NCBI GenBank assembly: GCA_030674185.1
Contig: CM060315.1
Span: forward strand, 85,627,454-85,691,453
DNA length: 64,000 bases
Source: Monoplex corrugatus
Lineage: Eukaryota > Mollusca > Gastropoda > Littorinimorpha > Ranellidae
Direction: 5' to 3'
Shown: in pieces, positions 26,242 through 60,790 of the stretch
How the letters are laid out: each line of letters starts with the position of its first letter
How positions within the stretch are numbered: position 1 is the first letter of the stretch
Program-made: the position numbers and the translations under genes
Notes under the pieces: model-generated
The model's input: the letters and a program-made list of their open reading frames with translations, nothing else
Database searches by the model: none
Told to the model about the DNA's origin: nothing

Positions 26242-28043
26242 TTATGAATGAGGAGACACCCATTTGTGTCCAGTGTGAGTGAAAGCTGCTGACTGACGTT
26301 CTTTCACAATGTCATCTGGAGATGGAGATGAAAAGTCGAAAGGAACCACTTTCTGCAATGGAGCTTCTGCATACACTTGCATATGTCTGATCTGATATTT
26401 GAACTGGAATTTAGGAAAACTCGCGTTCCTCTCGGGTGATTTCTGTACAGAACTTAAATCCATGTTCTCTTTTCCTGCTAAGTGCAAACAGATACACCGT
26501 GCAAACAAAGAAGGTGTCTTTTTTACTGTGAAGTCAACTTTTATAGGGTCAAAACAGTCTGCTTCAAAATTCCCACTCCTCAAAGGCAACGGTGGCGATT
26601 CCTTCTCTTCTACATTGTCACTTACAGCCGGTAGAAGAGCAGGGTCGGAATGTTTGGGGTGGATGGTCGTTTTCTTTTTCAGGCAATCTGCCAGTGACAA
26701 AACAACTTGCCCTTGGCTTCCCACAGCCGCATATTGCACTGCAGTCCTATGGGTATCGTGGGTCTCTTGCTTTCCCTTTAACCCTTCAGACCTGAAGGTC
26801 AGGTCGTGTTTGAATCTGTCTACTAAATTTGAACTCTCCTCAGTCTGCTTGCTGTTGGCATTGATGTCTTGGGTGGGGGAGCTGACCAATGGTGATGATG
26901 AAATGGACCTGTTGCCTTTGCTCTGATGCTGTTTGATAAAGTCTGACAAGGACAGGCCACTACCACTGTACACTGTCTGTGCACTACCAGTTTTCCTATC
27001 ACTTCCCGCATGTCCTGCAGTCATGCCCCGGCTATATGTGGATGACTTGGCCAAACTGCCCAGTGAAAGGCCCAAGTGTGAAGAAGATGGAATGTCACTG
27101 CTTGCTGCCTGAGAGCTGAACTGCTCTTTTGACTCAGATTCATTCATAATGAGCTGTGAAACAGACATATCCTGGACAGATAAACTCTTTTTGCTACTGC
27201 TGGTTTCTGAATCTGTCTGACTTGACTTTCTCCCAAGTGATGTTTCTAGTCTCTGCTGACTACTGTGCAAACTGATCAGTTCAGTTAAAGAGAGCCCTTT
27301 TGATGCCTGAGGTGAAGATGAAACTGCTGAAAATGATGATGAAGGTGTTGATGATGAAGGAGACTGTTTGTTCTGTGCAATTAGTTTACTCAAAGACAGA
27401 CCATCACTTGATTTCTGTTCAAGCTCTCGAGATGCCAATAAGAAGCCTGTTGACGTCTGTGTTGGTGGTGCTTGTGCTGAATGTTCTTGTGCCCTGATCA
27501 GGTCACACAGGGATACATCACTGCTCTTACTTAATTCTTTCTGGGTTAGAGCTGAAGGCAACACTGTGTGGGGTTGACACGAAACTGGTGGTCTCTCCTG
27601 CAGATTTCCAATATTTACCATGATGTGTTTTGAAACCATCCCTCCAGCAGCAGATGATGACTGTTCACAAGCTTGGTACTGCTGTATCGATGTCATTAGA
27701 GATGTCTGTGGAGGGCTAGCTAACTGCAGGGGGGAGGAGGTATCCGACCCAGTATCCACTACCCCACTGTGCCCTTTGCTGTGAGCTGATCCCTTCGCCA
27801 TCTCAGACAAAATCAGACCTCTAAACGACAAACAATTACCATTTCCCACAGAACTGGATGATGATCGCACACCGCATACATTGCCCTGATCTACCTCCCC
27901 TCTTTTTGATAGACTAATTCCTCCAGACGGCAACATTCCCTTCTCAAATCTGAATATACCCCCAGTCCCTTTATAATATAAATTGTCCTGCTGATCTAAA
28001 GCATTAATTTCGGACAGCAAGTCCTCAATGTCTTCGTCATCTC
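26242..28043 (-). CDS. HBS1L: HBS1L-like gene, exon 6: SKI7-like alternative terminal exon
   Basis: This 1802-nt exon supplies residues 152-751 of the spliced protein and ends at a stop codon. It follows exon 5 in phase 1 (split Gly codon), after a 500-nt intron that ends in a weak GTAAG acceptor. The product has no GTPase domain. It begins with an acidic stretch (DDEDIEDLL), then is Ser/Gln-rich and probably disordered. It carries seven copies of a short motif like GLSLS-x-LI-x-Q (protein residues about 327, 366, 401, 443, 476, 514, 598). The C-terminus holds PFDFSSPSPDDIV followed by an Ala-Phe tail. Animal HBS1L genes make a short splice form (HBS1LV3) that replaces the GTPase with such an exon and bridges the exosome and the SKI complex in cytoplasmic mRNA decay. 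That role is inferred from locus and position. The exon assignment is firm; the SKI7 function is likely. Confidence 0.85.
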
Positions 28044-28543
28044 CTTACCTTACAGCAGCCATCATAAGGAGCACAGAGCAAAAGTGTAGCAGAGTTGGCA
28101 GCAGAAAAACAGTGATCACCACCATCATGAAAAAGAAAACACACAGAATGGGCATTTTGTTAGTATAAGGCCACTACACTGGGGTTGATAATATACAAAT
28201 TCGCAAAGCAGTCTGTTGTTTTTGTTATGCATCCATGTATGTACACTTACTGCAGTACATCTGTCATTTATTTAAATAGACTGACATGACAATGACAGCA
28301 GTCATTAATATGATCTTTCATGCTACTTAGTTCTCACTATCCTTTTGATACACTATTACATTTTTACAACAACTGAACAAGTTGCGATAAATGCACACAT
28401 GCATATCCTCTTCAGAATAGCTGCAATTAATACATTACCAATAAAGTAAAAAAAAAAAAAAAGATCATGAATCAATATATTTTGACATTTACACAAGTGA
28501 CAACTGCCACTGACAAGTAAATAAAAAGTTCAGAAAAAAATAC

Positions 28544-28594
28544 CTTGCGTGCGGTCCTTCTTCTTCCGTGGAGTTCTCTGGGGCTTGGGGGTAC
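28544..28594 (-). CDS. HBS1L: HBS1L-like gene, exon 5 (17-codon linker)
   Basis: A 51-nt exon bordered by ATACAG and GTATTT, phase 1 on both sides. It encodes a basic linker, GTPKPQRTPRKKKDRTQ. It joins exon 4 to the SKI7-like exon without breaking the frame. In the full-length isoform it would instead splice to GTPase exons, which are not seen in this window. Its short size and low complexity make it the least secure exon by itself, but the phase and splice sites agree with its neighbours. Confidence 0.7.
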
Positions 28595-28914
28595 CTGTAT
28601 CATGAACAAAAATATAAACATGATATGAACATTTCATGCATGCATCATGATAAAAGTATAATTACATGAAATATTACATAAAATTATCTTTTATCTCAAA
28701 AAAGTTGAACTTCAGCCACATATCTCCAGAGAGGAAAAACAAAAATACAAGGAGAAATCTAAAGGTGGATGGAGAGGCATGCTGAACATTTATTAAAAAA
28801 TGAATTTCATCATATCCACACGCTTTTTCTCAAATAAAAAGTTACAACCCCAGTAATGGAAGCATACTGTGTGATGAACCTAATAAGGCTGTTTTAACTC
28901 ACTCCCTACAGGGC

Positions 28915-29830
28915 GATTTGGAATTGAACATTCCTCTGTGTACTGGGCATTTGTATAGGTTTTTAAAAAAAAATAATTAAAAATTAATGGCCAGACACTA
29001 TTCTTCTAATTTTGATACACGATTATCATCATATTGAACAAGCATTTTACAAAGTTTCAAAGCTGTAACCTTTATGGTACTCTTTTTGTTGCCAGTTGTA
29101 AAACAAGGTATATATTCTTATGGTAATAAAAATGAGGGCGATCGCAAGAGCATATAAGGGAAGTTCTCACTGTTCTTGAAAAGAGGACTGTTTTTCACAT
29201 AAATCACATTGGAAATACCAGTAGAGAGTAAACAATAACTAACTGAGAGTTTCTACTCTCTACAAATAAACTAAAACCAATAACATATTACTGATAACTT
29301 GTCGATTTCTCATTTCACATTCTCCTGTATACAGGCAGTTTGTACTGGTGTTTAAAAAAAATAATAAAAAAATAATGAACAAACACACACTCTTGAAATT
29401 TTCACACATAATTATTGTTTGATTGAATAAGCACATTACAGAGTTTCAAAGCTCTAACATTTATAGTTCTCTTTCTGTAGGTGGTGATGAGAGAAAATAT
29501 GTTTTTGTGACAACAAAATTGAGGGTGGCTGCAATTGGATAGTGGTAAAATTCACACTGCTCCTGAAAAGTTTTCCACATAAATCACATTGAAAATCCCA
29601 GTAGAGAGTGAACACAGGCTACCTGAGATTTCTACTTTATACAATTCAGCTAAAATCAGCAAAATGCTGCTGACTGCTTGGCGATTTGTAGTCAGCTTCA
29701 GTATACCAAGTGCTTGAATAGAGTTGGAAAAATCATGAAAAAATATTAACAAAACACACATTCTTGAAATAGTAACATATGATTACTGTTTAACTAAATA
29801 AGCACAGCATCAGGTTTCAAAACTATAACC
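28915..29830. repeat. Tandem array of about 330-370-bp units
   Basis: Roughly two and a half imperfect units share AGTTTCAAAGCT, TTTTCCACATAAATCACATTG and CCAGTAGAGAGT in the same order. Unit starts are near 28915, 29240 and 29600. No coding potential is conserved between units. Confidence 0.75.
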
Positions 29831-29849
29831 TCAACACACAGACACACAC

Positions 29850-30056
29850 ACACCCAGACATACATACATTCACATCCATACACACACACACCATACAAAC
29901 ACATTCATACATACGATATAAGCACACATACAACACATACACAGAGTGCATACACACAGTACAAACATCCACACACAGTACAAACATCCACATGCACATA
30001 AAAGTGCAGGTGTGTACACACACACACACACACATCACACACTTATCCACATCACA

Positions 30057-30137
<81 letters not shown>

Positions 30138-30165
30138 ACATACACACACACACACACACTAATAC
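29850..30165. repeat. Large (CA)n-rich block
   Basis: Degenerate CA/CATA repeats followed by a pure run of about 75 bases. Confidence 0.95.
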
Positions 30166-30189
30166 ATGCATTTCATTCACTGGTGTACC

Positions 30190-31230
30190 ATTTCCAAATT
30201 ATATTTTGCTAGTTCCCCTTTTGCCTGATGGCTTTGATCACTGCATCTCTTTGTTTCATCAACCAAGCGTTTCATAATCAGGTCACTGAATATTTGGTCA
30301 AAAAATGAACAGGGGTGTGGTCTGTAATGCCATACAACTTTAGCCTATGTGTTTCTCCATCTGTGTATGGAGGAATAACTGAAAGGAAAAAACACACACA
30401 AAAAATCTTCAAGGCAGACATTCATCACGAAACAACAGAACCAACCCCAGTCAGATCAGCTGGTGGGCTATTTGCATAAGTGCCATGCTACCCACACTGT
30501 GTCACTCACCACACCCACCCCTCTCTTCCTTTCACCTTCTCTGTCGGACACACTTTTGTCAATTCCATCCCTTCTGATGGGCTAAAACCACTTTCTTCAT
30601 ACTACTCTCCATCTTCAAAGTCAGACCCCTTAGTAAGAATGACTTTTACTGCCTGACATAAAGTGTAAACACATCTTGTTCAACTGCTGTGAGCGCAACT
30701 TGTTCGCAGTTGAGGCGCCATTGTTCTCACATGGTAAACAGGAATGGGGTCAGCAAAAAAATAGCTCAATGGCTGACCGGTCAAAGGTCACTTGCCACGT
30801 GCAGTGGTCAAAGGTTACTCTGTGGTAATGAGGCTTTAGCATGACCCCCTTCAATTTCCACTAAACAGCATTATGTCACCAGTGGAAATTTTTTAATGTG
30901 CGAGCCGCATATCCAGCCCTCAGAGCAGAAGCGCATAGCTGAGTCCGTCCGCAAATCCGGATGTTAGAGCTGAGTGAGTTAAGATACATTTTGAAACTGG
31001 AAGAGAAACCACATTCTACCAATTTATAGCATCATAAAATAATATTGCCAGTCTTTCAAATTTACTGAACAAGGAAACATTCCCTACCCTTCTATCCAGG
31101 ACCACCAGGCCAGCCTCACTCTAACTCAAGTTCTATGGCTTGTCATGTTTACCATCATCATTCCCAATGCCTTTAGATATTCCATCATCCTGGTCATTCA
31201 TAACAATTATGCAACCTAATTCAATGCTCT
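30190..31230. other. No gene recognised
   Basis: Unassigned intron 4 sequence, partly inside the TTAA-bounded element. A moderately GC-rich patch lies at 30690-30970. No conserved frame was seen. Confidence 0.5.
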
Positions 31231-31287
31231 GTTACCAGAATTCTAGGTAATCATAATACTTAGACTTCAATACTGATATGAACTGAC

Positions 31288-31422
31288 CACTCAGAGACAG
31301 CAACTCATCCAGCGCAGCAGCTGTGTTATACTTGTGTCGCACAACAGTTTCTGTAAGAACTGAGTCAGCAATACTGTCCCCCATCACACTGTGAATCTCT
31401 TCCAGACAGCTCTGCAGTTGAC
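31288..31422 (-). CDS. HBS1L: HBS1L-like gene, exon 4 (HBS1 N-terminal domain, second half)
   Basis: A 135-nt phase-1 exon with acceptor TTTCAG and donor GTCAGT. It encodes residues 90-134, including LQSCLEEIHSVMGD and VVRHKYNTAAALDELLS. This matches the helical part of the HBS1_N domain of animal HBS1L (a UBA-like helical fold; the human counterpart has a Leu-x-Ser-Cys-Leu then Val-Leu-Gly-Asp pattern). In HBS1 this domain contacts the small ribosomal subunit during rescue of stalled ribosomes together with Pelota. Family recognition is strong. Confidence 0.9.
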
Positions 31423-31784
31423 CTGAAATTGATTTTCTTTTAATTAAAAAAAACTCGTTTGTAAGTTTTTCCATTCTAAGTGGTATCCTTGCAGGCTTAC
31501 AATTCAACATTTCTTCAAATTTCATAACAAAATAAATTGCAAAGACATTACCCTCATAGAAAATACTGACATTATGTTTATATAGTGCTAGATTCTAATG
31601 ACATGAATAATCTGAATTCCACTGGATCTTACACATGAATGTATATCTAATCCTAGATTCTAGAAGATATGAATCATCTGAATAATACTAGGTCTTATCA
31701 ATTCATTTTGTTGTGAACAACTTGTGCATAAGCACTTAGTTACACAGTACACAAGTAGGTTATACTGATTTATCATGTGGAGTA

Positions 31785-32075
31785 TATGGTCTAATAGTTA
31801 AAATATTTGCCTAGAATGTGAGAAACACAAATTCCAATCATCCCGAAAGATCTTAAGAACTGATCTAGTGTACTGTCTTTCGGGTGATGCACTAAATTGA
31901 GGTCTCATGTGCAGCACACGCTCAATGCACAACAATAAAATTGTCCCTGGAATGATTAAAAACAAAAAAGGCAGTGCTGCATGCGGCAACACACTCCATC
32001 CAGGAAAAGCAGCCTGAATTTCACATGTTAAAACAACTGTGACAAGTAAAGAAATAAATATATACATAAAAATAT
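31785..32075 (+). repeat. tRNA-derived SINE with mollusc-type body
   Basis: The start, TGGTCTAATAGTTAAAAT, resembles a Pol III A box, and a degenerate B box (AAATTCCAATC) follows about 35 bases later. The body has CTTTCGGGTGATGCACTAAATTGAGGTC, TGTGCAGCACACGCTCAATGCAC and TTGTCCCTGG in two parts, a layout I know from dispersed SINEs of gastropods and bivalves (body with GAGGTCCCGTGTGCAGCA). The tail is A-rich. It is diverged and probably dead. Confidence 0.65.
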
Positions 32076-32299
32076 TCTATAACAAGCTTGCTCCTAAAAC
32101 TCTGGCGACGTCTTAACACCAGGTTCTACCAATCAAGCAAATTGTAATCTGTATTGTCAACTAGTTAATCAATGAATTCTGTTCCGATTATTCTTTATCA
32201 CTTGACAGGGCTCCCCATGATGCACATTCTGCATATTATTCATGCACTAAACCATTATTTCAATCCCTAAGATTTTCTATGCCTGCACTTCAGCATCCA

Positions 32300-32530
32300 A
32301 ATTTAAACTTGAGGTGGGATTATTGTTACTTTTGTTCAAGGTCAAGCCGACTGCGTGGAGCCATATCAAGGCTATAACCATTTCAAAACATACACAATAC
32401 TTAAAACAGGGGGAAAAAAAAGAAAAGAAAAAAAGAAAAGTAAGTACACATATCAATGCATTTGTGCACACGATCTAAGGAGATGTCCCTGGTGTTGACA
32501 ACTTCATCCAATTTATCACACAGGGAATTT
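32300..32530 (-). mobile_element. 3' end of an I-type LINE
   Basis: On the minus strand it ends with AGCCTTGATATGGCTCCACG and GTCGGCTTGACC, matching the 3' UTR of the element that ends near 14330. Only the non-coding tail is present. Confidence 0.7.
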
Positions 32531-32998
32531 AAGAAACATACCTGAATTTAAAAAAACACACCTGAATAGAAATTTAATTATAACTAAGGACACTAAAACA
32601 TATATAAAAACGGGCTTAAATTACCTAAGATCAATGCCGCATATCTCATTTCCCTAGAGCCAAAAATGCACATGATACATATGCACAATTATCAATCCTA
32701 AGAGAAAGTATGAAAGACTTTAATGAACACATACAGGTGAATGGACCAGCAAGGCAGAAAATCGATAGGAAGAAAAGACAGAAAGCAAAGGAACAAGGCA
32801 GAAACAAAGACAGTGACAGAAAAAGAGGAAATTTCTAGCACAGATTTTCAAGGTGGTGGGGATACTATCTACACTAAAAGAACCCCCGGCATCTCCACGG
32901 GGGGATTCTACACGTCAGCTTCTACTCAGTAGGCCTAAAGAGCTATCCATACTGAAAATAGCCTTGCATCATCACTATATTTTGAAAGCAGGTTTTTG

Positions 32999-33061
32999 AT
33001 CGGGCAGATCTATCTTCGATCAGCCACCCATCGGGCAGATCTATCTTCGATCAGCCACCAA
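32999..33061. repeat. 31-bp tandem duplication
   Basis: Two adjacent units of ATCGGGCAGATCTATCTTCG plus ATCAGCCACC differ by one base. Each contains the near-palindrome CAGATCTATCTTCGATC. Confidence 0.9.
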
Positions 33062-33226
33062 TCATCTATCATTTAGTCAAACTGGAAATTGCAGTTCAGA
33101 GCAGCAATAAAATTAGCATATCTGACTGACAAGTGATTGAAATGTGAAGAATGTTCTCATAGCAGTGGTGAAAATGGTAAAACAAAAACTCCATCAGATC
33201 ATTTATATGCCATAAATATACTTTCA

Positions 33227-33227
<1 letters not shown>

Positions 33228-33322
<95 letters not shown>

Positions 33323-33358
33323 CTCTTTGTGTTTCTTTGCATGTGTGTGACTGTGTGT

Positions 33359-33440
<82 letters not shown>
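33228..33440. repeat. (GT)n microsatellite, two blocks
   Basis: Two long GT runs separated by about 40 bases of degenerate sequence, in HBS1L intron 3 upstream of exon 4. Confidence 0.95.
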
Positions 33441-33443
<3 letters not shown>

Positions 33444-33892
33444 TTTTTTTTGTCACTGACGCTCGTTTATATTTAATTCCTTTAGTGCTTCAAGCATTAA
33501 CTAGACTGCATAGGCCTAGATGTAGCTTAATTGACCAAGAGGTCAATCAATAGAAATATAAGAATTATGTTTTAAAGTACTGCCGTATTGTTCCGACTTC
33601 TGGCACAGACTGTCTAAATTAAAAAAACCAGGGGGAAAATATAAAATTTCACTGGCAAGCAAGGGGAAGCCCTCATTTGAACAATAAGCTGTAATCATTA
33701 AATCTGATCAGTTTCATAACACTGAAGGAGAAAAAAGAAGACAAAAACTAAATGAAAAAAATTCAATCCTTTCCGCACTAAGAAGTTCTCAACACAACTG
33801 GAAGCCGGTTTGTATTAAACTCCCCAAACCTTCATAATAATGTCTGTGCATGAGATTACTAAATATGTGGTGAAATGTTTTAATTCCTGAAC

Positions 33893-34048
33893 CTTTGTCA
33901 ATGTCTGAAAGTGCAGCATATGTGGACACAGCAGTGGCTGCCTGTGCTTCTTTTGGTTCCAGGTCTATTTCACTCTCTTCTGGTATCTCCTCCTCCATGT
34001 AGGATGACAGATCAAAGTTCTGCTCACGGTTGTACATGAACTCAGCAG
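33893..34048 (-). CDS. HBS1L: HBS1L-like gene, exon 3
   Basis: A 156-nt phase-1 exon with acceptor TTTCAG and a weaker donor GTTCAG. It starts with AAEFMYNR, the counterpart of the Ala-Ala-Gln-Phe-Ile-Tyr segment of vertebrate HBS1L, and continues into an acidic stretch (YMEEEIPEESEIDLEPKE) and Ala/Ser/Thr-rich residues. It encodes residues 38-89 of the spliced product, the linker between the N-terminal Tyr/Asp-rich peptide and the helical HBS1_N domain. The intron upstream is about 18.7 kb, filled with mobile elements. The open frame reads on past the donor, so the donor was chosen by phase and GT consensus. Confidence 0.85.
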
Positions 34049-34472
34049 CTGAAATACACAATATCAGTTTTCAATTAATCATCAACTAGCAACTAACAGG
34101 TAAGTTGTGATGGGTGAGTTATAATGAGCGAGTTAAAACAACAAACTGTAAAAGCTTATCATTTTTTTAAAATTATATTTTCGCTCTGGTGAGACCAGGT
34201 TGTATAATAATAATAATAATAATATTGGACATTTGTTGAGCGCCTTCCTCCCTCACAAGGAGGGAGCACAAGGCGCTTCACATAATAGACGCACAGAACA
34301 GCCACAAATAGTGTACACATATAACATAAGACATATGGACAGATATGTCACACTTCATACTACAAAACACATCATACCGCACAATACCACATGATAACAT
34401 AATAACACATCTCATACCACATCACTACACACAAATATGGAAAGGAAAACAGAACTATGCATGACAACAAAA

Positions 34473-34473
<1 letters not shown>

Positions 34474-34547
<74 letters not shown>
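34474..34547. repeat. (CA)n microsatellite
   Basis: A pure CA run within the LINE 3' UTR. Confidence 0.95.
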
Positions 34548-34589
34548 CATGCACCCTCTTCAACAATGGGATAAGGAGGAATGATAGAA

Positions 34590-35598
34590 TCAAGAGTGAA
34601 TATGGAGTGTTGTCTCAAAAGCATTTTTGAACAGGTAGGTCTTGAGACCGGTTTTGAAAGATGTGAGAGAAGGAGCATGGCGAAGGTCATATGGGAGACT
34701 GTTCCAAAAGAGAGGAGCTGAGAAAGAGAAAGAGCGTTCACCAAACGACTGAGTTTTTACACGAGGTACAATTAGCAAACGGGTGTCAGAACTTGATCGG
34801 AGCTGTCGTGATGGCAGGTATGTTGAAATCATTTCTGAAACATAAGGGGGAGCTGTGCCTGTAAGAGACGAGAAAGTCAGAGTAGCTATTTTGTATTGTA
34901 TCCGTGCAGATACTGGTAACCAGTGAAGAGACTGCAGAAGTGGTGTAATATGATCTCTCCTTTTAGCCCTACAGACCAGTCTAGCTGCCGCATTTTGGAC
35001 TTTCTGTAGTTTTTGGATCAAGTAGTGTGGACAGCCAACAAGGAGGGAATTACAGTAATCAAGTCTTGACAGTACCAAAGAACAAACCAGGGTTTGTGCT
35101 GCCTGAGTAGTGAGAAGATGCCGAATGGAACTGATTTTCCGGAGTTGGAGATATGCGGCTTTGCAAATATTATTTACATGCTGCTTCATGGAAAGATTGC
35201 AATCAAGAGTGACACCTAGATTTTTCACTGAGGAAATGAAATTGACATCAGATTGTCCAATGCGAAGAGAAGAAGGTAAAGTGCTGTTTACAGATTGTCT
35301 GCCAGAAGAAATGATAATAGCTTCTGTTTTACTGTCGTTTAACTGCAGTTTGTTTTCATTCATCCATATCTTTACATCTTCAGTACAGTTTTGGATAGAA
35401 TCAGTACAAGAATCGATGTCACGAGGATGCGTTTCTTTGTAAAGCTGATTATCATCAGCAAAAGCGTGATGATTGACCGAATGTTTTCTGATCACATCAA
35501 AAAGCGGTTGGGTGTACAAGATGAACAAAACCGGTCCAAGCACAGATCCCTGGGGAACGCCATACTGAATGTTTGAAGGAAGAGAGTGGTTGCCATTT
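34590..35598 (-). CDS. CR1/L2-like reverse transcriptase, C-terminal half, open
   Basis: The frame is open from the truncation to a stop. It starts in the RT palm ([19 protein letters not shown]) and has the catalytic region [12 protein letters not shown] (Phe-Ala-Asp-Asp). [74 protein letters not shown] and [14 protein letters not shown] follow, the order seen in CR1-like pol proteins. The end is [14 protein letters not shown]. The endonuclease and N-terminal RT are missing, so it is an intact fragment, not a working gene. It lies in HBS1L intron 2, just upstream of exon 3. Confidence 0.9.
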
Positions 35599-35723
35599 AT
35601 CTTCCTATTTCACTCCCATGAGACCACGTATCCAATATGGATCCACCCACTTCAGATGGAAATCACGAATGCCTTGAATTCCTAAGAGAAACAAATTTTC
35701 ATGGTGTCCTTTGAACTGAAAGG

Positions 35724-41060: not shown

Positions 41061-41063
41061 AAT

Positions 41064-42244
41064 ATGCCTGTCAGGAAAAGCCCAGATCCATGGAAGAGGC
41101 CCTCAACAGAATATACCAGTTCCAGCATATCTCCATGGCAGTTCACGGCCAGAAGAGGGACCAGTCAAGAACCCCAGATAGGTGCAGTTGGAGTGCCCAA
41201 GGATGCCATGGACAGCCTTAGAGAAGCCATGGAAAAATTGACTGCGAAAGTGGAGGTTCTACAGAATAAAGTAGGCGCAAAAAACACCACTCCAGCAAAC
41301 ACTGGGAGCAGCCAGGTCCAGTGTTTCTTCTGCAAGCAGAGGGGGCACATGAAAAGCGGCTGCTCTCAATATAAGAAATGGCTGGAAAAGAAGTCACAGA
41401 ACAGCCATCCAAAGGAGCTGATCCTCTGCGCAATAATCAGCAATCCAAAGGAGCTGATCCTCTGCGCAATAATCAGCAATCCAAAGGAGCTGATCCTCTG
41501 CGCAATAATCAGCAATCCAAAGGAGCTGATCCACCACGCAATAATCAGCAGTCCAAGGGAGCTGATTTACCATGCAGCAGTCAGGAGTCCAATGGAACTG
41601 ATACACAGCGGAAAAATAAGCCCCAAATAGGAGTGGAGAGGGAAGCAACCGAAGCACTATCAACACAGGGAGGGGTAGACAGTGCATCCAAAACTATCCA
41701 TCATGATAGCAAGGATAACAAAAATAATCCACCTTCGGTTCTGCACCTCAACAAAGTCTGTGCTGGTTCCTCTGGACTCCAAGTGATTGTAGGTGGCATA
41801 CCAGTGGACTCAGGAGCTGAAATAACCATTGTTGCCACATCAGTTTATGATCAATGGAAAGTAAAGCCCAGGAAGATCAAAGATGTGGTCATGCACATGG
41901 CTGACCAGGAATCAGCATTGACGGGCTTTATCACCTCTCCCGTTCAGATCAGGATTGGTCAGTCCTTAATTCAAGAAAGGATTTACGTGGCTCCGATAAG
42001 TGATCCAATGCTCCTGGGGCATGATTTGCTACACCATTGGGGGGCAGTCCATGATATGCAGTCAGACACCTTGGTGATTGGGGCAGAAAGGACTCCTTTG
42101 AAACTGCAGTTTCGAAATACTCCTCCGTCGGTAGCTAAGAGTAATGGCTGCCGAGAAGATAGTGATTCCTCCAAATTCTGTTGCCAGGGTAAGGGGCAAG
42201 GTGGATATAATGCTGCAAGAATACTACATCGAGTCAAGCAATAA
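41064..42244 (+). pseudogene. gypsy nucleocapsid zinc knuckle and aspartic protease
   Basis: The first frame (to 41630) has CFFCKQRGHMKSGC, a CCHC zinc knuckle (Cys-x2-Cys-x4-His-x4-Cys), and a coiled segment before it (LREAMEKLTAKVEVLQNKV). A second frame, one base back, overlaps from 41378 and carries the protease: VGGIPVDSGAEITIVA with the Asp-Ser-Gly active site, and PMLLGHDLLHHWGAVHD, the Leu-Leu-Gly-x-Asp flap end. The overlap of about 250 bases is made of 36-bp repeats open in both frames. A -1 shift here could be programmed or simple decay. A further shift near 42140 leads into the RT frame. Confidence 0.82.
41403..41600 (+). repeat. 36-bp coding tandem repeat between zinc knuckle and protease
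   Basis: Five to six units of CCAAAGGAGCTGATCCTCTG plus CGCAATAATCAGCAAT. They encode a 12-residue repeat in one frame (SKGADPLRNNQQ) and PKELILCAIISN in the other. The last units are diverged. Confidence 0.92.
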
Positions 42245-43830
42245 TCATAATGCCAATGTCTTGATTCCAACAGTATTGCAGAAAGCGCAGTGTAATCCAG
42301 TAATATGCCTGGTCAATCCTGATGACAAATACTACACTATCAAGCAAGGGCAGTACCTGGCTGATGCTTTTGAGGTGGAGGAAATAGTAGAAACTTGCCA
42401 GTCAGGGAAAGAACTTCGCTTCTGCACAGTGACATCATCAAAGAAGCAAAGGAACCCTGATGGTCCCATATATCAGAAATCTAGTCAAGTGCCGGAACAT
42501 CTTCATCAGCTAGCTGATCAGTCAAGCAAGCACCTTTCAAAAGAACAGGAGCAGCAGCTAGAACAACTCTTATGCAGCTATGCGGATGTCTTTGCCAAAA
42601 GTGACCTTGATCTGGGTAACTTTACGGCCATTGAACATGCCATCGACACAAGGGAGGCCAAACCAATCAAGCAGCGTATGCGCCGAACTCCAGCAGTGTT
42701 TGCAGGGGAAGAGGAGGCACACTTGAAAAAGATGCTTGATTCCGGTGTGATTCAGGAGTCAGTTTCTGAATGGGCTTCAGCTCCTGTGTTGATCCGAAAA
42801 AAAGATGGATCTGTTCAGTGGTGTATTGACTACAGGGCTCTCAATGATGTCACTGTGAAGGATACGTTCCCACTCCCGCTGGTTGAGGACTGCATGGATG
42901 CCTTGTCAGGCAGTGTGTGGTTTTCCAAACTGGATGCCAACAGTGCTTACTGGCAAGTGAGGATCAAAGAGGCTGACCGCAAGAAGACTGCATTCCTGAC
43001 AAAGTATGGGCTCTTTGAACATGTCCGGATGGGTTTCGGCCTTACCAATGCGCCTGCGACTTTTGCCCGGGTGGTAAATCTCATCTTGAGGGGTCTCACT
43101 TGGAATACAGTTCTGGCATTCCTGGATGATATTCTGGTGTTGGGCAAAAGTTTTTAGCGACCACTTGCAAAATTTGAAGGAGGTACTTGAGCAGTTCAGG
43201 CAACATGGGATCAAATTAAAGCCAAGGAAATGTTTACTCTTCCAAAAGTAGGTGGAGTTTTTGGGACGTACGGTCAGTAGTAACAAGATGTCAATGTCAG
43301 GTCGTGACATCAAAACAGTTGCTGAGTGGCCTGTACCCATGAGTTCCAAGGACGTCGAATGATTCCTGGGCTTTGTCAACTATCACAGAACATTTGTCCC
43401 AAAGTTTGCAGAACTGGCCCAGCCTTTGTATAGTCTCACAGGAAAAAACAAGTTCAAGTGGGAGAACAACAACAGAAAGCTTTTGAAGCTTTGAAGAAGA
43501 CCTTGACGGAACCACCTGTACTAGCGCTTCCAAATGGAACAGATCCATTTATTCTGGACACTGATGCGAGTGATACAGCAATCGGTGCAGTACTTAGCCA
43601 GGTGCAGGAAGGAGTTGAAAAGGTCATAGCTTACAGCAGTTTTTCCCTCACCCCTGAACAGAGAAGGTATTGCACTACCCGAAAAGAGCTCTTGACTTTT
43701 GAGTATTGTGAGATTTGCAAGGCATTTCAAGTACTATCTGCTCCAGGGGTAGAATTTTCACAGTCAGGACCGACCACTCGAGTCTTATTTGGCTTCTGCG
43801 GTTCAAGGAACCCCAAGGTCAGCTAGCGCG
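42144..43830 (+). pseudogene. gypsy reverse transcriptase and RNase H
   Basis: The open frame to 43157 starts with KIVIPPNSVARVRGKV and ICLVNPDDKYYTIKQG, the region before gypsy RT. RT blocks follow: LIRKKDGSVQWCIDYRALN, DTFPLPLVEDCMDAL, WFSKLDANSAYWQVRI with the first catalytic Asp, MGFGLTNAPATFARVVNLIL and FLDDILVLG with the Asp-Asp pair. A shift at about 43150 and stops near 43250 and 43360 interrupt the thumb. The RNase H is again open from 43458: FILDTDASDTAIGAVLSQ with its Asp, VIAYSSFSLTPEQRRYCTTRKELL with the Glu. It then shifts at about 43735. Not functional. Confidence 0.88.
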
Positions 43831-49790: not shown

Positions 49791-49799
49791 CATCCAGTC

Positions 49800-50430: not shown

Positions 50431-50439
50431 AACAGGACA

Positions 50440-52731: not shown

Positions 52732-52800
52732 CTGTTGATGGGGAAACACAGTATCTGTCTTCATATGACTGGCCATAATCATCGTAATCATCACAGTACT
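52732..52800 (-). CDS. HBS1L: HBS1L-like gene, exon 2
   Basis: A 69-nt phase-1 exon between TTGCAG and GTTTGT. It encodes EYCDDYDDYGQSYEDRYCVSPST in two parts: the acidic Tyr/Asp segment and then YGQSYEDRYCVSPS, which is nearly the same as vertebrate HBS1L (Tyr-Gly-Gln-Ser-x-Glu-Asp-x-Tyr-Cys-x-Ser-Pro-Ser). This is the clearest diagnostic block of the gene. It lies between a 7.9-kb intron 1 and an 18.7-kb intron 2. Confidence 0.92.
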
Positions 52801-53344
52801 CTGCAATAAACAATTGCATCATCAGTATTCAATTTCATTACACACTGCACATAACAGTGACATTGATTAAAAGAACCAGTTTACTAGTAAAACTACACAG
52901 TTACCTATCAACTGAAACAGAAATTTAGGAGAAAAACAAAAGCACAGGTCAACCAAATAATTTCATACTTGTGCCTAAACCCCATTCGTATACGCATGCA
53001 GAATATCAAATGTGTACATTAAAGATCAAGTAAGTCATGTCACAGGCTGGCTTACGGAAACATGAAAACATCTAGTATGCACATCCACCAAAGATACAGT
53101 CTATGCAACAACATAGTGGAATATGGTCAGCATGCCCAACACTACAGCTCGAATTCTGTGCTCCAATAAAATACAGTAAAAAGTCTGCGAGTCCAAAGTG
53201 AGTTTGCAGAATAGCACTATACATTACAAGAATGATTCGTAATTAATCATACCAAAAGTGGACTGCTGAAGGAATGAATAAGCACAAGCCTGGAAGAGAA
53301 TGCTCCAAGGTCAAGTCACAGCAAAAGGTCTTCACAGGTGACCT

Positions 53345-53561
53345 CCCCCCCCCCCCCCCCCACAAATATGTGTTTCTGCCCTAAACTCAAGTTATACTCC
53401 AACAGAACCAGGCAGCATCCAAATCATGACTCTGGGATGCCCTTCTGCTCTCGCTTCCCCCCCCCCCCCCCCTTCTTTTTCTTCTTCTTGTTCTACACCT
53501 GGGTTTACTTGCATCTCCAAGGTGGTCCAGGTATCTCTACTTCACTTATCCCCCCCCCCCC
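53345..53561. repeat. Three poly-C tracts
   Basis: C runs at about 53345-53360, 53459-53472 and 53551-53561, each followed by a T-rich stretch and, in two cases, by ACCTGGGTT. This suggests a triplicated module ending in a SINE-like piece. Confidence 0.8.
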
Positions 53562-53582
53562 ACACCCCTCTCCTTTTTTTTT

Positions 53583-53690
53583 TCACCTGGGTTCGAACTT
53601 GCACCCCTGCTGTCTCAAACCCATGCCACATTTGTGACATGTGTTCACCACTTAGCTATTGGACACTTGCAACATACAGGGGGATTTAAT
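53583..53690 (-). repeat. tRNA-related SINE head
   Basis: Read on the minus strand, TAGCTAAGTGG fits the Pol III A box and GTTCGAACC is a perfect B box, about 50 bases apart, as in a tRNA-derived SINE. A-rich sequence follows. Base pairing of a full tRNA cloverleaf is not kept, so this is not called as a tRNA gene. Confidence 0.55.
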
Positions 53691-53709
53691 TTAAAGCCTT
53701 AAGAAGTTC

Positions 53710-54370
53710 ACATCTAGGGGAATTTTAAGCCTGGCTTATGAAGGTCACTTTTTGCTTCTCCTTGACCATATCCAGCTGGAACTGTTTTCAGTAGCTTCTG
53801 CTATTGCTTTTTGGGCTCTGGCCCTCTCCTTCCCCGAAATTGACAGCTGTTTCATGAGCTTATAAGCAGATGTGCCCCCAATCCCCTTGATCCAATCTCT
53901 ATGGCAAGGAACTAAAAACCAGATTTCCTCAAGTTGCTGGCTAGATTGGCATACTTTTCAGCCATTATGGACATGGGCTCCCTCCATTTTACTTTCACAG
54001 GACACATTGAGTTTGATCAGAATGTTTTTTTGTTTTGTTTTTTAAAGAACAAAAGTGGAGAAATACATCTGGTCTCATGGCACTCTTGCTGCTGAGTTCT
54101 GCCCCTGGTGTGTTTTTTCATTGTGGAAGATCTGCTGTGCACCCACAACTGTCAACTCCATCTAACAGTAACAGACCCTGCTTCCATGCTCCAAATGTCA
54201 TACCTTTCGTGCCACAGTTTGTTGCTTCTTGCCTTCTCAAAGGTTGCAAAAGCTTCTAGTGGCACAATTTTTCCCCTGGCAGTACTGATCGATTGTACAA
54301 TCTCTTTAGGCTTGTGGGCACTTAACTGTGCCTGTTAGCTCTTGCATTTGAAGGCAAGTCATGCACAGAT
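53710..54370 (-). mobile_element. Degenerate LINE pol C-terminal fragment
   Basis: On the minus strand the pieces IVPLEAFATFEKARSNKLWHE, MAEKYANLASNLRKSG, then GIGGTSAYKLMKQLSISGKE and ATENSSSWIWSRR can be followed through several frames. They resemble the end of LINE pol proteins common in aquatic invertebrates (helical block, then a Gly-Cys-Arg-Gly-like turn, ending Trp-Leu-Trp-x-Arg-Arg). The match is weak and the copy very old. Confidence 0.4.
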
Positions 54371-54572
54371 CTGAAGATGAAACCAATTCTGAAAGGGGCC
54401 ATATATATATACATCCCTTTCACTCCCCCATCCTGTTCACCAGCTGCAATTTTTTATTAACTTAACCCTTTCATTCCTTCACTCTGTCTGAACTATTCAG
54501 TGACTATTATTCTTGAAGGCATACACATACACAGATACATTATATAAATATATTCACCATATCATCAATCAT

Positions 54573-54602
54573 CACACACACACACACACACACACACACA
54601 TG
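54573..54602. repeat. (CA)n microsatellite
   Basis: Short pure CA run in HBS1L intron 1. Confidence 0.95.
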
Positions 54603-54681
54603 CGCAACTGCGTGTATCACATTTTACAAGTGAAGAGTACTGCAAATGCAGATCAGGGGTGGAACTGGAAGTCTTACTTAT

Positions 54682-54765
54682 CGAATGCGGAGCAGCTTTA
54701 CCCATAGCGGAGGCCATACATTCAACATTGCCACAAAACAGGGTGGGCATGGCGCATGCAGAACA
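54682..54765 (+). repeat. Dispersed repeat shared with the HBS1L upstream region
   Basis: TGCGGAGCAGCTTTAC, then GCGGA(A/G)GCC and CCACAAAACAGGGTG occur here and at 61091-61165 in the same order. The two copies are about 80 bp each. Confidence 0.7.
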
Positions 54766-54779
54766 TAAATTTCACTGGT

Positions 54780-56230
54780 AAGTTCGACTTAAAGCTACGA
54801 CAGCTCTCTCTCTCACCACCCCTGACGTAAAACTTTACATAGCACATGTGTGTCAAGAAACATGGCAGGCCATGTTTATTTTAGGTTACTACCACGGCAT
54901 AATTTGAGACGTCAAAGGATTCTGCGGGATCATACAAGCCCATTTGATATTTACGATGATATGGAGCTGTTTGCTAGGTAGTAGGTTTCGTTTTCAGAGA
55001 GAAGACATCATTACTCTTGTCGATCTTTTCGAGATGAGCTGGAATACCCCTTTCCGAGAGGGAGATTTGTTGCCTCCATTAACGCAAGTGTTAGCTGCAT
55101 TATGGGTTTTGTTTTCTTTTGTTTTGTTTTCTTTTTTGGTGGTTTTTTTTTTTTTTTTGGTTATCGTTGTTTTTTGTTTTTTGGTTGTTACATTTTTTCA
55201 TCAGTGTCATTTCAGCAAGCATTGACTTATTTCATTATTTTACATTGACCGAAGGACTGTAGGAAGAATTATTGCCCAGTTCTCCTCAGTTTTGTCCTGA
55301 AGGCTAGGGGAATTCAAGCACCTTCTAATCCTACATCACAGAGAGAAGCAGATGCAGTGTCAGTTTTTACCACACTGCACAGTTTCTGACCATGCTGGGC
55401 CACATTGACTGCACATGTATGTATTCAAATCACTGCATCTGTGCTTAACGAATTTGAATACTTAAACAATAAAGGCAAACACACGATTAATGTGCTGCTA
55501 ATCTGCAATGCAGATATGCTTGTCACAAATTGTATTGTCCGTTGGCCAGGATCAGTACATGGCTCTCACATTTTACATGAAAGCAATCTCTGTTAGAACT
55601 TTGATGAATCAACTGCAAAGTGTCATTCATGATTCAAGTGATCTTAATTTGGTTACTGATTGTTGGTCTTTTGTATGAACCCTGAGCATAACACCCTAAT
55701 GTAAATTCTTTTTTTGTTATTTTTTCCTCTGTGCGTCTGTAAGACTGAATTTATCAGATGATTGAAACATTTTTCTTCCTTCATGTATACTGACTGACTA
55801 GTCCACTCCTTACTTCATGTCATGATCTGTTATTTTTTATGAACAATGAGCCTGCTTGTAATTATATACTGCATGGATATTAGTATATATGGCCTGCATA
55901 ACAATATAACAACTCTTCCCCAATAATTCCGCCCTTTTATTCCAGAGTAAAGAGCTATGAGCATTCTTTGATATAGACTGTTTGCATTAGACAGATTATC
56001 ATTTCTCTTCCTTCTGGCCAGCCACTGCAGTGGTTCTAGGAGTGAACTAACTGACCCCGACATGTCACTAATGGTTCTGTTTATCTGCATGCTGTGATGT
56101 TTGGTTAAGGCAAAGCCTTGATAGCTTGCTGAGTGTGAGAAAGTAGAGGCACAACTGACATGCTCTTTCAGTCTTTGTTCTACAAACACTCATAACATCA
56201 TCATCATTATGAAACAATCAGAAACGTGAA
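54780..56230. other. No gene recognised
   Basis: Intron 1 sequence with a T-rich run at 55105-55195. Short open frames show no domain. Confidence 0.5.
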
Positions 56231-56239
56231 TTCTTCAAC

Positions 56240-56800
56240 ATCCACAAGGGGGTCTGAGAAGGTTGTATCCTCTCACCGTATCTCTTTAACATCTACACAG
56301 AACAAGTCATAAAGATGCTGATACAGAAGGCATGGGCATAAAGATGGGAGAAAAAATCTTACAAACTTGCGCAATGCCAATGATAAGGTGCTGCGCTGTT
56401 AGCAGACAACATTACCAGCATAAAAAGAATTCTATACAGGGTAGATGCAGCAGGCAAAAAGGCTGGTCTAAACTTCAATGCCAAGAAAACAAAAGAGCGA
56501 CATGTATATCAAAGGCAAAGACACTGAAAACAATCATGACATCACAATAACAAAGTTCCCTTGGAAAATGTTAAGGATTTCAAATATCTTGGCCTTGTAA
56601 AAACTGATGATGGAACCTACTCCAAAGACATCAAAACAAGAACTGGAACAGCAAAGCAAAAAACGGTCCAATTCAACAACATATGGAAAACAAGGGCATA
56701 CCAAATGGCCTGAAAGTTAGGCGTGTAAAATGTTTGATCTGGCCAGTCATGATTTATGGCTGCGAAGCCTGGACTCTGAGAAAAAGTGATCTCATCATAT
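56240..56800 (+). mobile_element. Degraded RTE-type LINE fragment
   Basis: Pieces such as GCILSPYLFNIYTEQV, ALLADNITSIKRILYRVDAAG, VPLENVKDFKYLGLVKTDDG and YSKDIKTRTGTAK match the open copy at 17225-18715 block by block, with frameshifts and stops in between. The catalytic box is lost. Confidence 0.85.
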
Positions 56801-56859
56801 GATGATTCATCAAAATCAGATCTAGATAATATATCTGTTTGCATGAATTTGTTGTTTAG

Positions 56860-58080
56860 CCCTACTGAAATAATTCATCTATTTTGTATGACATTGTTAC
56901 TTTTTTGACTTTTCAGATAACTAAAAACAAAATGAAAAATTAACTTATTTGTTGTTTTTTCTTTCATTCAGCACTTGATTCAAACAGTGCAAGAGAAACA
57001 TTTAGACCTATTTCTGTTGGCTTTTAAGCAAAATTATTCAGGTTCGTTAAGTTCTAGTTTATTCAGCTTTTTTCTCCACATATTTACTGGCATTATGTCA
57101 TGTTTTATCATCTTTGAAAAGTTGGTTTGGGATTTTTTAAAGTCACAATGATATCTTTAAGTTTTATGTTTGCATGTTTATTTTCTTTGAGGGACTGTTG
57201 TTTCTTATCTCATCCAAAAGACCTGCACTCACACCGTCAGTCAGGATCTGAAGAAGGTGATGAGAATGTAAGCTCAACTGAAAGTTTAAACCTGCATGAT
57301 TGAATCAAATAACTATTGAGTTGCAGACTTCTATCTAAAGGTGAATCTATAGGGAATTTTAAAAGTGAGATCAGGGTTTTCTCAATAAAGTTCTTTAAAT
57401 AATGAATATATGGGCTAATCAACTTGTTCGTGAGTTCTCTTTTCTATAATGACTGCAAATTTTCTAGTGTAGAACCATCATTTGATGCAAAAATAAGTAA
57501 AAAACCACTAAAGAAAAAAGTGTGTGCTCATCTGTGGACTTTTTTACTGATCATATAATGTCAGGTGAGTTTCAGAAAGTCGTCATTTCTTTAAAGAATG
57601 CCCTGCTGAAGAGTCATCACCATCCAAAGAAATCAACTCATCATTTGAGTGTCAGAAAACTCTCATCACTGTCACTGATGATATTATTGCTATTACTATT
57701 GTCCAGTGTTTCTTGAAACAATTTTATCGCCTGCTCAGCAGTCAGTCTCATAGGGCGCCCCCCACCCGAAACCATGACAAATCAAAACACAGCACAAGAT
57801 GCAAAAAAAAACCCAACAACTTCAAACTACTTCACCAGCACAGAAAAGCGTGAAATGAAAGCAGAAATATCTATTGCCGTAAAGCTTGGCTGATGTCGGA
57901 AAAGAGTGACTGTCGCAATCAAGATGTTTGGTAACTGAAAAAGCTGACTCTGTCGGCTTGCCAGACAATAAAAGTTAATGGCATATATACTCCTAATCAT
58001 AATTTAAGGGCCACTTCTTCCTTCCTCTCTAATTTTAAGTTGAAATAATTGACAATGTTTAGAATTGATTCTATGTTTTA
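56860..58080. other. No gene recognised
   Basis: AT-rich intron sequence without recognised repeats or conserved frames. Confidence 0.5.
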
Positions 58081-58212
58081 TTTCATCATTTCCACACCTG
58101 TTTTGGAAAAAAGAAATTAGCACAATGACCCATTAGTGAACAGCACATGCATTTAAAGGAACATCCCCCCCTTTTCAAAAAACAGAAAGTGTCAGATTTG
58201 GCCAATCTGTTT

Positions 58213-59241
58213 TCAATATCGCGTGTGTCCGCCCCGAGCCTGGATGCATGCTTCACAGCGCCGATGCATCGACCCCACAAGGGTACGGAGTGTGTCCTGA
58301 GGGATGGCCGCCCACTCGATCTGCAGGATGTCGACCAGCCTGGCCAGGGTGCCCGGTGGGGGGTGGTTGTCCCTGATGCGCCTCCCGAGCACATCCCAGA
58401 GGTGTTCAATTGGGTTCAGGTCAGGTGAGCACGCTGGCCAGGCCATACGGACGACTTCATGCTGCTCCAGGAAGTCGGTCACAAGGCGTGCTCGATGCGC
58501 AGGTGCATTGTCGTCCTGGAAGATGGCGCCTTGACCAAGGTCCACAAGCGCAGGCAGTGCCACGGCCGCCAGAACCTCGTCCCGGTACCGGACCCCGTTC
58601 AGGATGCCGTCAATGGGGAGCAGGGGGGTCCGGGTACCACGGCTCATGCCACCCCACACCATCACCGACCCGCCGCCGTACCGGTTATGCTCTTGGACAG
58701 TGGCGTCAGCGAACCTCTCCCCTTGACGTCGCCACACCCGAGCCCGGCCATCGTTAAAGGTCAGGGTGAACCTGGACTCATCCGAAAACAAGACCCGGGC
58801 CCACTGTTGCCTTGTCCAGGTCACGTGCTCCCTGGCCCAGGTCATGCGGCGCACTCTGTTGACCGGTGACAGCACGGGTCGGACGGCCGGTCTCCGTGAC
58901 CTCAAGTTTGCCTCATGTAGCCGTCTTCTCACCGTGCTGCAGCTGATGTTAGCACCTGTTGCGTCCCTCAGCTGACCCCTCAAGGTCACCGCAGTGGATG
59001 CCCTTTCCCTCAGGACAGAGAGGGCAAGGTAGCGGTCTTGCTGTCTTGTCGTTACTCTGGGTCGACCCGTGTGACGCCTTTCCTGGACTGCTCCAGTCTC
59101 ATTGAAGCGCTCCAGCAGTCTCTGGATTGTGGAATGCGACACTTCAAGTCGTCTAGCAACTTCCCGCTGCGCTAGGCCTTCATCAAGCAGAGTGAGGGCT
59201 CTCCCCCGCTGCTCATCCGTCATCCGTCGTCTTGCAAGCAT
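58213..59241 (-). CDS. Tc1-type transposase, intact (342 aa)
   Basis: It should excise and insert its own element at TA sites. The N-terminus has two helix-turn-helix parts: LTLLDEGLAQREVARRLEVS at 17-36 and a second after the GRPR motif at 59-62. The catalytic triad is Asp154 (in FSDESRF), Asp244 (in FQDDNAPAH) and Glu279 (in LNPIEHLWD), with 34 residues between the last two, so DD34E. GGGSVMVWGG lies between, as usual. The length is typical for Tc1 and there are no stops. The gene is much richer in G and C than the AT-rich intron around it, with C or G at most third codon positions. Inverted repeats were not located with certainty. It lies in HBS1L intron 1, in the gene's direction. Confidence 0.95.
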   Translation of the reverse strand: MLARRRMTDEQRGRALTLLDEGLAQREVARRLEVSHSTIQRLLERFNETGAVQERRHTGRPRVTTRQQDRYLALSVLRERASTAVTLRGQLRDATGANISCSTVRRRLHEANLRSRRPAVRPVLSPVNRVRRMTWAREHVTWTRQQWARVLFSDESRFTLTFNDGRARVWRRQGERFADATVQEHNRYGGGSVMVWGGMSRGTRTPLLPIDGILNGVRYRDEVLAAVALPALVDLGQGAIFQDDNAPAHRARLVTDFLEQHEVVRMAWPACSPDLNPIEHLWDVLGRRIRDNHPPPGTLARLVDILQIEWAAIPQDTLRTLVGSMHRRCEACIQARGGHTRY

Positions 59242-59629
59242 GGTTAAAACGAACCAAGAACGGGTCCTTTTTATCCTCGTCTGCGGGCAACTTTGGATGG
59301 AGTAGTGTTCAAAAAGGGCTTGCCTTGCACGTGCAAAGCGAATTTTGTCGCTACCTTGCCTGCGTCGTCAGAGAGACCCTGCTGAAGATTCGACAATTTC
59401 GTGTGGAAATTGTCTTCCTTGGGACGCCCATTGCAAATCGGCAAATCCCCAAACACGTGCCAAAAGGAAACTGCAATGTTGTCTGAGCTCTTATCCATTC
59501 AGTTACGGCAACGAATTGGAGAAAAGAGTAAGAGAAAATAGGTTATTTCTCCTTTCAAAAATTGACTCAAAAACGTTCCTGGCCCTTCAATAATGACGTG
59601 TAGTATATATATATAAGTCCTAAGAACTA

Positions 59630-60330
59630 TCACAGAAAGGTCAATCAAGTTGAATAAGGATTTTATAAATTTTTACTTTGATTATACCAAGGCTTTCGAT
59701 TGGGTAAGACATGAAGAACTGATCAACCAACTAGAAAGACTCAATGTTGATGGAAAAGATCTATGAATAATCAGAAATAGGCCTATATTGGGAACAAACA
59801 GCTGCAATGAGAATAGAAAACGATATAAGCTCTTTCCAAAATATCAAAAGAGGAGTCAGGCAAGGTTGTGTCTTGTCACCAGATTTGTTTTCACTTTACA
59901 GCAATACCATCATGAGAAATCTAGAATGCCCTGGATTAAAGGTTGGAGGAAAAATGATAAACAACATCCGTTACACAGATGACACCATGCCAGTTGCAGA
60001 AAATGAAAGTGGCCTACAAAACCTTGTAGATTAGAAATAGAAAGCAAAAATAAAGGGTTGGAGCTAAATAGCAAGAACACGTAAGTCACGTTAATCAGCA
60101 AAAAACAAGAAATCCCGTCATGTAACATAACAGCAAACAGCACAACCTTGAGACATGTTGATAAGTTTAAATATCTGGGAAGTCATCTCGCCAGACAGCA
60201 GATGAACATCAGTAAATAGCCAGCAGAATCAGCCAAGCCAAAACAGCATTCAAGAAGATGAAAAGAATTCTTACCAACAAATGCTTATCAATTAACATCA
60301 GGAAGAGAGTTCTTGAATGTTATATAAAAT
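59630..60330 (+). mobile_element. RTE-like LINE RT fragment, decayed
   Basis: In the plus direction it has YTKAFDW-like DYTKAFDWVRHEELINQLER, then after a stop and a shift ISSFQNIKRGVRQGCVLSPD, LFSLYSNTIMRNLE and KMINNIRYTDDTMPVAENES. The catalytic box is changed from Tyr-Ala-Asp-Asp to Tyr-Thr-Asp-Asp. It ends in a decayed thumb region (FKKMKRILTNKCLSINIRKR). Same family as 6450-6806 and 19250-20640, opposite orientation. Confidence 0.87.
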
Positions 60331-60747
60331 AAACAGCCATCCACTGGCCCTGCTTGGTGAACTGAAGTGGGGCTGCTTCAACATTGTCTTCATTCATGTC
60401 AACGTCAGCAGCAGATACACTGAATAGTAAATAGGCCTAGCCTATCCTTTAACTAAGTGCAATGATTCGAATGAATCATTGAATGTGATACTCTAGTCTA
60501 TGCGTATACATACGAACGGGGTTCAGGCACTGGCAGGTCTGCACACATGTTGATCTGAGAGATCGTAAAGATCTCCATCTCTGAGGCCTAACCACCAGGC
60601 AGAGATGTCTCAGTCTACAGTTTAGAGAGACTTGAACCCCGAAACCTGACTGGAGAGCGCAGAACTCCAACTCGAGAAGTCTCGTTACAAAACATCGACC
60701 GATGTAAATTCTTATTACATAGGCTACGTTTCACACTCTGTACTCAC

Positions 60748-60790
60748 CATCTTCATAGTTCATCCGACGAACTATTCTGTGTCGCGACAT
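60748..60790 (-). CDS. HBS1L: HBS1L-like gene, exon 1 with start codon
   Basis: The 43 coding nucleotides start at an ATG with a purine at -3 and end at a strong donor, GTGAGT. They encode MSRHRIVRRMNYED, matching the conserved HBS1L start (Met-x-Arg-His-Arg-x-Val-Arg, then Asn-Tyr). The split last codon is completed by exon 2. The ATG is chosen because the family's proteins begin at this residue. CpG-rich sequence lies just upstream. HBS1 is the translational GTPase partner of Pelota in no-go and non-stop decay. Confidence 0.9.

Follow-up and report, generated by a model that had tools for sequence, protein, structure and literature searches.

Exon organization of the HBS1/SKI7 locus

The sequence studied here, called the window, is a 64,000-nucleotide stretch of contig C11 (CM060315.1) of the gastropod Monoplex corrugatus, in which window position p corresponds to contig position 85627453+p and positions of zero or below fall to the left of the window. 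It carries on its minus strand the first exons of an HBS1 gene together with a terminal exon of the SKI7 type, and it is very probably part of a mollusc HBS1/SKI7 locus with a common N-terminus and two alternative endings. Flanks of 160 kilobases (kb) on the left and 40 kb on the right were taken from the same contig, and the genome searched comprised 3.02 Gb in 7621 contigs. Within the window, five short shared exons precede the SKI7-specific one:

60748..60790, minus strand: exon 1 (shared), ATG start at 60790, encodes MSRHRIVRRMNYED, phase 1 out
52732..52800, minus strand: exon 2 (shared), encodes the acidic YCDDYDDYGQSYEDRYCVSPST
33893..34048, minus strand: exon 3 (shared), from direct reading and an in-frame join
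31288..31422, minus strand: exon 4 (shared), core of the HBS1_N/UBA-like domain
28544..28594, minus strand: exon 5 (shared, last common exon), encodes TPKPQRTPRKKKDRTQ, phase 1 donor
26242..28043, minus strand: SKI7-specific alternative terminal exon, 1802 bases including the stop codon TAA

Read directly on the minus strand, exons 1-5 joined to the terminal exon give 751 codons without a stop, followed by TAA. The product runs from MSRHRIVRRMNYED to a final SPHS, with RTQ-GDDEDIEDLLSEINALDQQ at the join between exon 5 and the terminal exon, and all five introns of this SKI7 form start with GT, end with AG and have phase 1 junctions. The shared N-terminus amounts to 151 codons, which feed both the HBS1 and the SKI7 frames. 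The Pfam model HBS1_N reaches 34.7 bits on the assembled protein, over its cut-off of 26.4, and 25.4 bits, below that cut-off, on the exon 4 open reading frame alone; the N-terminal domain of HBS1L/SKI7 is described as a ubiquitin-binding UBA domain in PMC13232801. These readings are in agreement with a preliminary description of the window, which had proposed five short exons carrying the HBS1 N-terminal domain, phase 1 and GT-AG at every junction, and a terminal exon that stays in the frame of exon 5 for 600 codons. A search of the whole genome with the PF08938 profile gave no match, there or in any of 14 control genomes, and is uninformative since it was silent in all of these controls too.

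The GTPase half of HBS1 lies to the left of the window, on the same strand, as 12 further exons (6-17). Searching by tblastn with human HBS1L recovered GTPase exons in order on this strand, 10 of them with expectation values (E) under 0.001. Exon 14 gave a weak match (E 0.31) and was placed on its phases and protein match. The two exons that follow exon 5 in the HBS1 form are:

-8664 to -9042, minus strand: exon 6 (linker), phase 1 in, phase 2 out
-10245 to -10327, minus strand: exon 7, phase fitting exon 6

Exon 6 was chosen on a weak tblastn match, one among many, plus phases fitting exon 5 and exon 7. Four linker-exon candidates from a first scan (up to 420 bases, strict splice cut-offs) were not used. 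Joined together, exons 1-17 encode 732 amino acids with no internal stop and end at -70026, the coding sequence spanning 130,817 bases from start to stop. Exon 17 was ended at the first stop codon, and a donor-like GTGAG stands near its end, so that a further 3' exon may follow.

On the 732-residue protein, Pfam places HBS1_N, GTP_EFTU (E 1.3e-52) and C-terminal elongation factor domains over their cut-offs, and GTP_EFTU_D2 below its own. Among the best 60 of 91 PDB sequences, mammalian HBS1L (5lzw_jj) comes first at 692 bits (E 6.8e-207, residues 1-722), the next best being EF1A and eRF3 chains at 350 bits. One point in this set weighs against an HBS1 assignment, as the fungal Hbs1 chains score 328 and 303 bits, under EF1A; mammalian HBS1L is nevertheless far ahead. 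Exon 5 is phase-compatible with both the SKI7 exon and exon 6, and it can splice in frame to either because both acceptors need phase 1. That both proteins, HBS1 and SKI7, are encoded at the locus is in our judgment nearly certain. The suggestion that the same locus would also encode the HBS1 GTPase is thus upheld by 12 exons on the same strand and by mammalian HBS1L as their best match, and the likeness drawn earlier to the vertebrate HBS1L/HBS1LV3 pair is matched by a SKI7-type exon and a complete HBS1 GTPase at one locus and on one strand.

The source had been called a probable mollusc from the sequence, and the genome agrees: PF14830, the haemocyanin beta-sandwich, which we take to be a mollusc-typical domain, has 16 matches, clustered on contigs C10 and C31, and none in the 14 control genomes. 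Mobile elements occupy parts of the gene. A Tc1/mariner-type transposase frame of 384 residues lies inside intron 1 (58213-59367, minus strand; HTH_Tnp_Tc3_2 E 1.2e-18, DDE_3 E 4.2e-15), and RVT_1 reverse transcriptase frames are found in the introns at 17225-18718 (minus strand), 34590-35609 (minus strand) and 42135-43157 (plus strand).

Identity of the SKI7 terminal exon

Searched against the PDB, the 600-residue product of the terminal exon (P0001) best matches human SKI7, entered there as HBS1-like isoform 2 (9g8m_E, E 8.9e-5, residues 511-590); just one more chain reached E <= 1, a globin (E 0.33) that was taken as chance. The database protein P0002 matches P0001 with 35% identity over 98% of the length (E 1.3e-60). 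Because it matches both human SKI7 and this independent protein, the 600-codon frame is real coding sequence. A profile search found no relative besides P0002, probably because its words were drawn from the first 500 residues and it scored no more than 7994 candidates. With residues 500-600 as the query, two proteins among 19 candidates gave E <= 1, namely P0003 (E 1.3e-21) and P0004 (E 0.014). The best PDB match is again 9g8m_E for P0002 (E 1.3e-6), P0003 (E 7.7e-4) and P0004 (E 1.1e-6); three further PDB lines of P0004 at E 0.5-0.7, all bacterial toxin B-chains, were taken as chance. Judged on similarity alone, P0002 and P0003 appear mollusc-like.

Two putative exosome-binding motifs stand near the end of the exon, and a candidate polyadenylation signal lies beyond it:

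26485..26514, minus strand, P0001 residues 511-520: SKI7-like motif PSLFARCICL, predicted to bind the exosome by homology
26305..26343, minus strand, P0001 residues 568-580: Patch 4-like motif PFDFSSPSPDDIV, a pattern match, predicted to bind the exosome by homology
25405..25410, minus strand: ATTAAA, candidate polyadenylation signal, the sole A[AT]TAAA within 1.5 kb past the SKI7 stop codon

The first motif aligns with human PSAFASTLCL. Two patterns, relaxed versions of the metazoan consensus given in section 8 of PMC6143672, detect both motifs in all four proteins, P0001-P0004, the most divergent SKI7-like motif being PSLFGLTLCY of P0004. In a Pfam search of the 600 residues no GTPase domain was found, the sole match at E <= 1 being a holin model at 13.6 bits, below its cut-off of 28.4. 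The preliminary description had seen here a SKI7/HBS1LV3-type exon lacking a GTPase domain; that family assignment is strengthened by human SKI7 as best PDB match and by the two exosome motifs, and its second part by this sub-threshold holin model being all that Pfam returned at E <= 1. About 1.1 kb past the SKI7 stop codon, on the same strand, there is a hAT-type transposase frame of 704 residues (23059-25173, minus strand; Dimer_Tnp_hAT E 2.9e-7).

In the mechanism that we propose, exons 1-5 would supply the common N-terminus, with its acidic stretch and HBS1_N/UBA-like domain, and the SKI7 form would bridge the cytoplasmic exosome and the SKI complex without a GTPase, its last ~90 residues clamping the exosome as in human. 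Yeast Ski7 keeps a C-terminal GTPase domain. So does plant SKI7 (PMC6143672), unlike the mollusc form. Yeast Ski7 and plant HBS1/SKI7 connect the exosome with SKI and have a Patch 4 element (PMC6143672, PMC11540850); the protein described here has a Patch 4-like motif and would form such a bridge too. The SKI3 contact is given as not conserved in budding yeast (PMC11540850). Human SKI7 (HBS1L isoform 2, HBS1L3 or HBS1LV3) resembles the mollusc form in its N-terminus common with HBS1 (residues 1-144, compared with 151 codons in the mollusc; PMC11540850), in a terminal part without GTPase and in an LSLSELI helix, to which the mollusc repeats are similar in sequence. Zebrafish ski7 is likewise made from a SKI7-specific terminal exon of hbs1l with the same two motifs, but its specific exon is numbered 5, whereas in the mollusc it comes after five shared coding exons, and it is backed by mutant data and by expression data, with a peak in eggs and embryos (PMC7924785).

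A probable choice between two endings

A position-weight matrix was made from all scored acceptors of the gene except that of the SKI7 exon, 16 in number, and was used to score the acceptors, with leave-one-out values for those 16. Two results weigh against a join of exon 5 to the SKI7 exon. At -6.0, with the 16 others ranging from -3.9 to 17.9, the SKI7 acceptor has the lowest score of the 17 in the gene, which bears out the weak acceptor noticed earlier for the sixth exon; moreover, 43% of the AG dinucleotides on the gene strand score at or above it, so that the matrix alone would miss it. The acceptor of exon 6 has a leave-one-out score of 13.2. A pyrimidine-rich stretch (0.80 over 20 nucleotides) ends 31 nucleotides upstream of the SKI7 exon, outside the view of the matrix, and the acceptor itself lies in a cluster:

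28041..28050, minus strand: three AGs within ten bases at the SKI7 acceptor

None of these three AGs has a pyrimidine at -3. Joined to exon 5, the first meets a premature stop and gives a truncated product of 168 residues, an outcome akin to the unproductive splicing of SKI7 described in plants (PMC6143672). With either of the other two the frame is preserved, the product having 751 residues from the second AG and 750 from the third. The crowding of the AGs, their lack of a pyrimidine at -3 and the frame kept by the third would all suit a different join between exon 5 and the terminal exon, made either at the AG three bases further on or by way of a microexon that escaped detection. We consider this rather unlikely, and since use of the downstream AG would cost one residue, the interpretation would stay intact.

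The low score of the 28043 acceptor, below the 16 others, would also fit a SKI7 frame that is a gene of its own nested in HBS1, with its own promoter or another upstream exon and unspliced to exon 5, and the Met with which the deposited P0002 begins does lie within the region of homology. However, an in-frame stop stands immediately before the frame, whose opening residues agree with a phase 1 join to exon 5, and a start at the first in-frame Met (residue 37) would lose LLSEINALDQQ, which is nearly identical in P0002. A shared N-terminus is, besides, the vertebrate arrangement. A nested gene is for us very improbable, and alternative terminal-exon splicing at 28043, or at the AG three bases on, can be held with considerable confidence.

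From the phases and the sequence we infer that two isoforms would be produced by such splicing. Exon 5 would join the SKI7 exon across an intron of 500 nucleotides, the transcript ending there, to give the GTPase-free SKI7; alternatively it would skip 37 kb (37,207 nucleotides) to exon 6 and continue through exon 17 to give the ribosome-rescue GTPase HBS1. The choice would be set by competition between the weak proximal terminal acceptor and the stronger distal one of exon 6, and a weak early terminal exon competing in this way could plausibly act as the switch.

A motif array in the SKI7 linker and its possible meaning

The SKI7 linker contains a set of repeats that resemble the human SKI3-binding helix:

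26680..27516, minus strand: array of seven LSLSELI-like motifs

The copies start at P0001 residues 177, 216, 251, 293, 326, 364 and 449, and they use different codons. In human SKI7, helix 451-464 binds SKI3 via L454 and I458, as placed by cryo-electron microscopy and mutation (PMC11540850). This helix was located by numbering: among 17 offsets tried on the PDB chain read by the alignment, offset 364 alone puts L at 454 and I at 458, giving the helix NLSLSELIAETIDV, and it would fit the construct of residues 369-632 (PMC11540850) with short tag remnants.

Every window of each protein was then scored against the human 9-mer NLSLSELIA, with 10,000 shuffles per protein. Windows scoring at least 18 number five in each of P0001, P0002 and P0003, a count reached by 0/10000 shuffles in each case, and two in the human 374-632 part, one of them the query itself (87/10000). 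At a score of at least 14, there are eight windows in P0001 (0/10000), six in P0002 (0/10000), six in P0003 (3/10000), two in P0004 (6087/10000) and five in the human part, again including the query (8/10000). The HBS1-only part, used as internal control, has one window of at least 18 (1299/10000), two of at least 16 (512/10000) and three of at least 14 (596/10000), indicating a slight motif excess there at most, and the shared N-terminus has no window of at least 16. A regular expression finds 7, 8, 5 and 0 copies in P0001, P0002, P0003 and P0004, respectively; this count is descriptive only, because the expression was written after the repeats had been seen. Compared with the roughly seven copies of the mollusc linker, the human 374-632 part has a single exact one, accompanied by a few that are degenerate.

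The motif copies of P0001 and P0002 were matched up in sequence order, and the flanking residues alone, motif excluded, were scored. For seven pairs this arrangement has the highest flank score (rank 1 of 5040 permutations). Considered one by one, five of the seven copies find their best match in the partner assigned by order, with a tie in one case; for two further candidate pairs, outside the permutation count, this does not hold. The pairing supports old, individually inherited copies, yet it is not independent, as it is drawn from the same sequences.

The long and probably disordered linker would offer about seven equivalents of the SKI3-docking helix, so that one SKI7 could engage SKI3 via several interchangeable sites. 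The link to SKI3 is suggested by likeness to one human helix, and we give about even chances to the array docking SKI3; such docking would be multivalent. Several points weigh against it. The resemblance of the motif query to the repeats was already known when that query was picked, and two of the seven P0001 copies score just 14 and 12 against the human 9-mer. P0004 has no LSLSELI array (0 windows of at least 18), so the array is not general. In human, binding is ascribed to one helix, another predicted helix having contributed nothing substantial (PMC11540850), so the extra mollusc copies need not bind. Finally, AlphaFold2 run on P0001 with P0002 gave no fold, the mean predicted local distance difference test (pLDDT) score being 35; the few helices that it shows in P0001 (4-17, 116-126, 179-187, 253-264, 451-455, 513-522 and 576-587) coincide in part with three of the seven repeats and with the two exosome motifs, at a confidence too low to count.

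It is quite possible, if short of probable, that the repeats are a feature of a disordered linker or bind a partner other than SKI3. The linker is Ser-rich and modelled at very low confidence, and P0004 does without the motif, though with other repeats of its own. Yet the copies exceed composition-matched shuffles, the seven of them pair in order between P0001 and P0002 with the first-ranked flank score, and their core equals the human SKI3 helix placed experimentally (PMC11540850).

In residues 5-300, P0004 has other repeats instead of LSLSELI copies, namely LSSLS or LSSLA seven times and LDLLQ or LNLLQ four times. Which short motif multiplies in the linker may differ from lineage to lineage. 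In open-access literature text, figures and supplements being outside the search, no paper on a SKI7-SKI3 short linear motif was found; "multivalent" alongside SKI7, SKI3 or HBS1L terms gave, in papers from 2023, just a plant P-body review, and the strings LSLSELI, LSLSDLI and LSLTEL only a fish virus paper, judged unrelated from its listing.

SKI7 in molluscs was already known, since SKI7-like proteins have been reported in mollusks, brachiopods, cnidarians and others (Brunkard and Baker 2018, PMC6143672). The mollusc ones are listed there as proteins, to which the present locus adds a full mollusc exon map. The gene is thus a well-founded, conserved one of a type already known; what is new is the LSLSELI array in the linker. 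The locus bears on the evolution of HBS1/SKI7 gene structures in metazoans, a question left open by that 2018 survey. A mollusc locus with the vertebrate one-gene, two-ending layout suggests, from two lineages, that this layout predates the protostome-deuterostome split.

The motif array may come as a surprise to specialists, and it gives a testable idea of the role of the long linker, namely avidity for the SKI complex. We tentatively put forward, as a possibility that we do not consider probable, that the SKI7-exosome hops along or captures several SKI complexes, and that vertebrate SKI7 has been reduced to one dominant helix with decayed copies. If true, the capture of several SKI complexes would suit runs of collided ribosomes.

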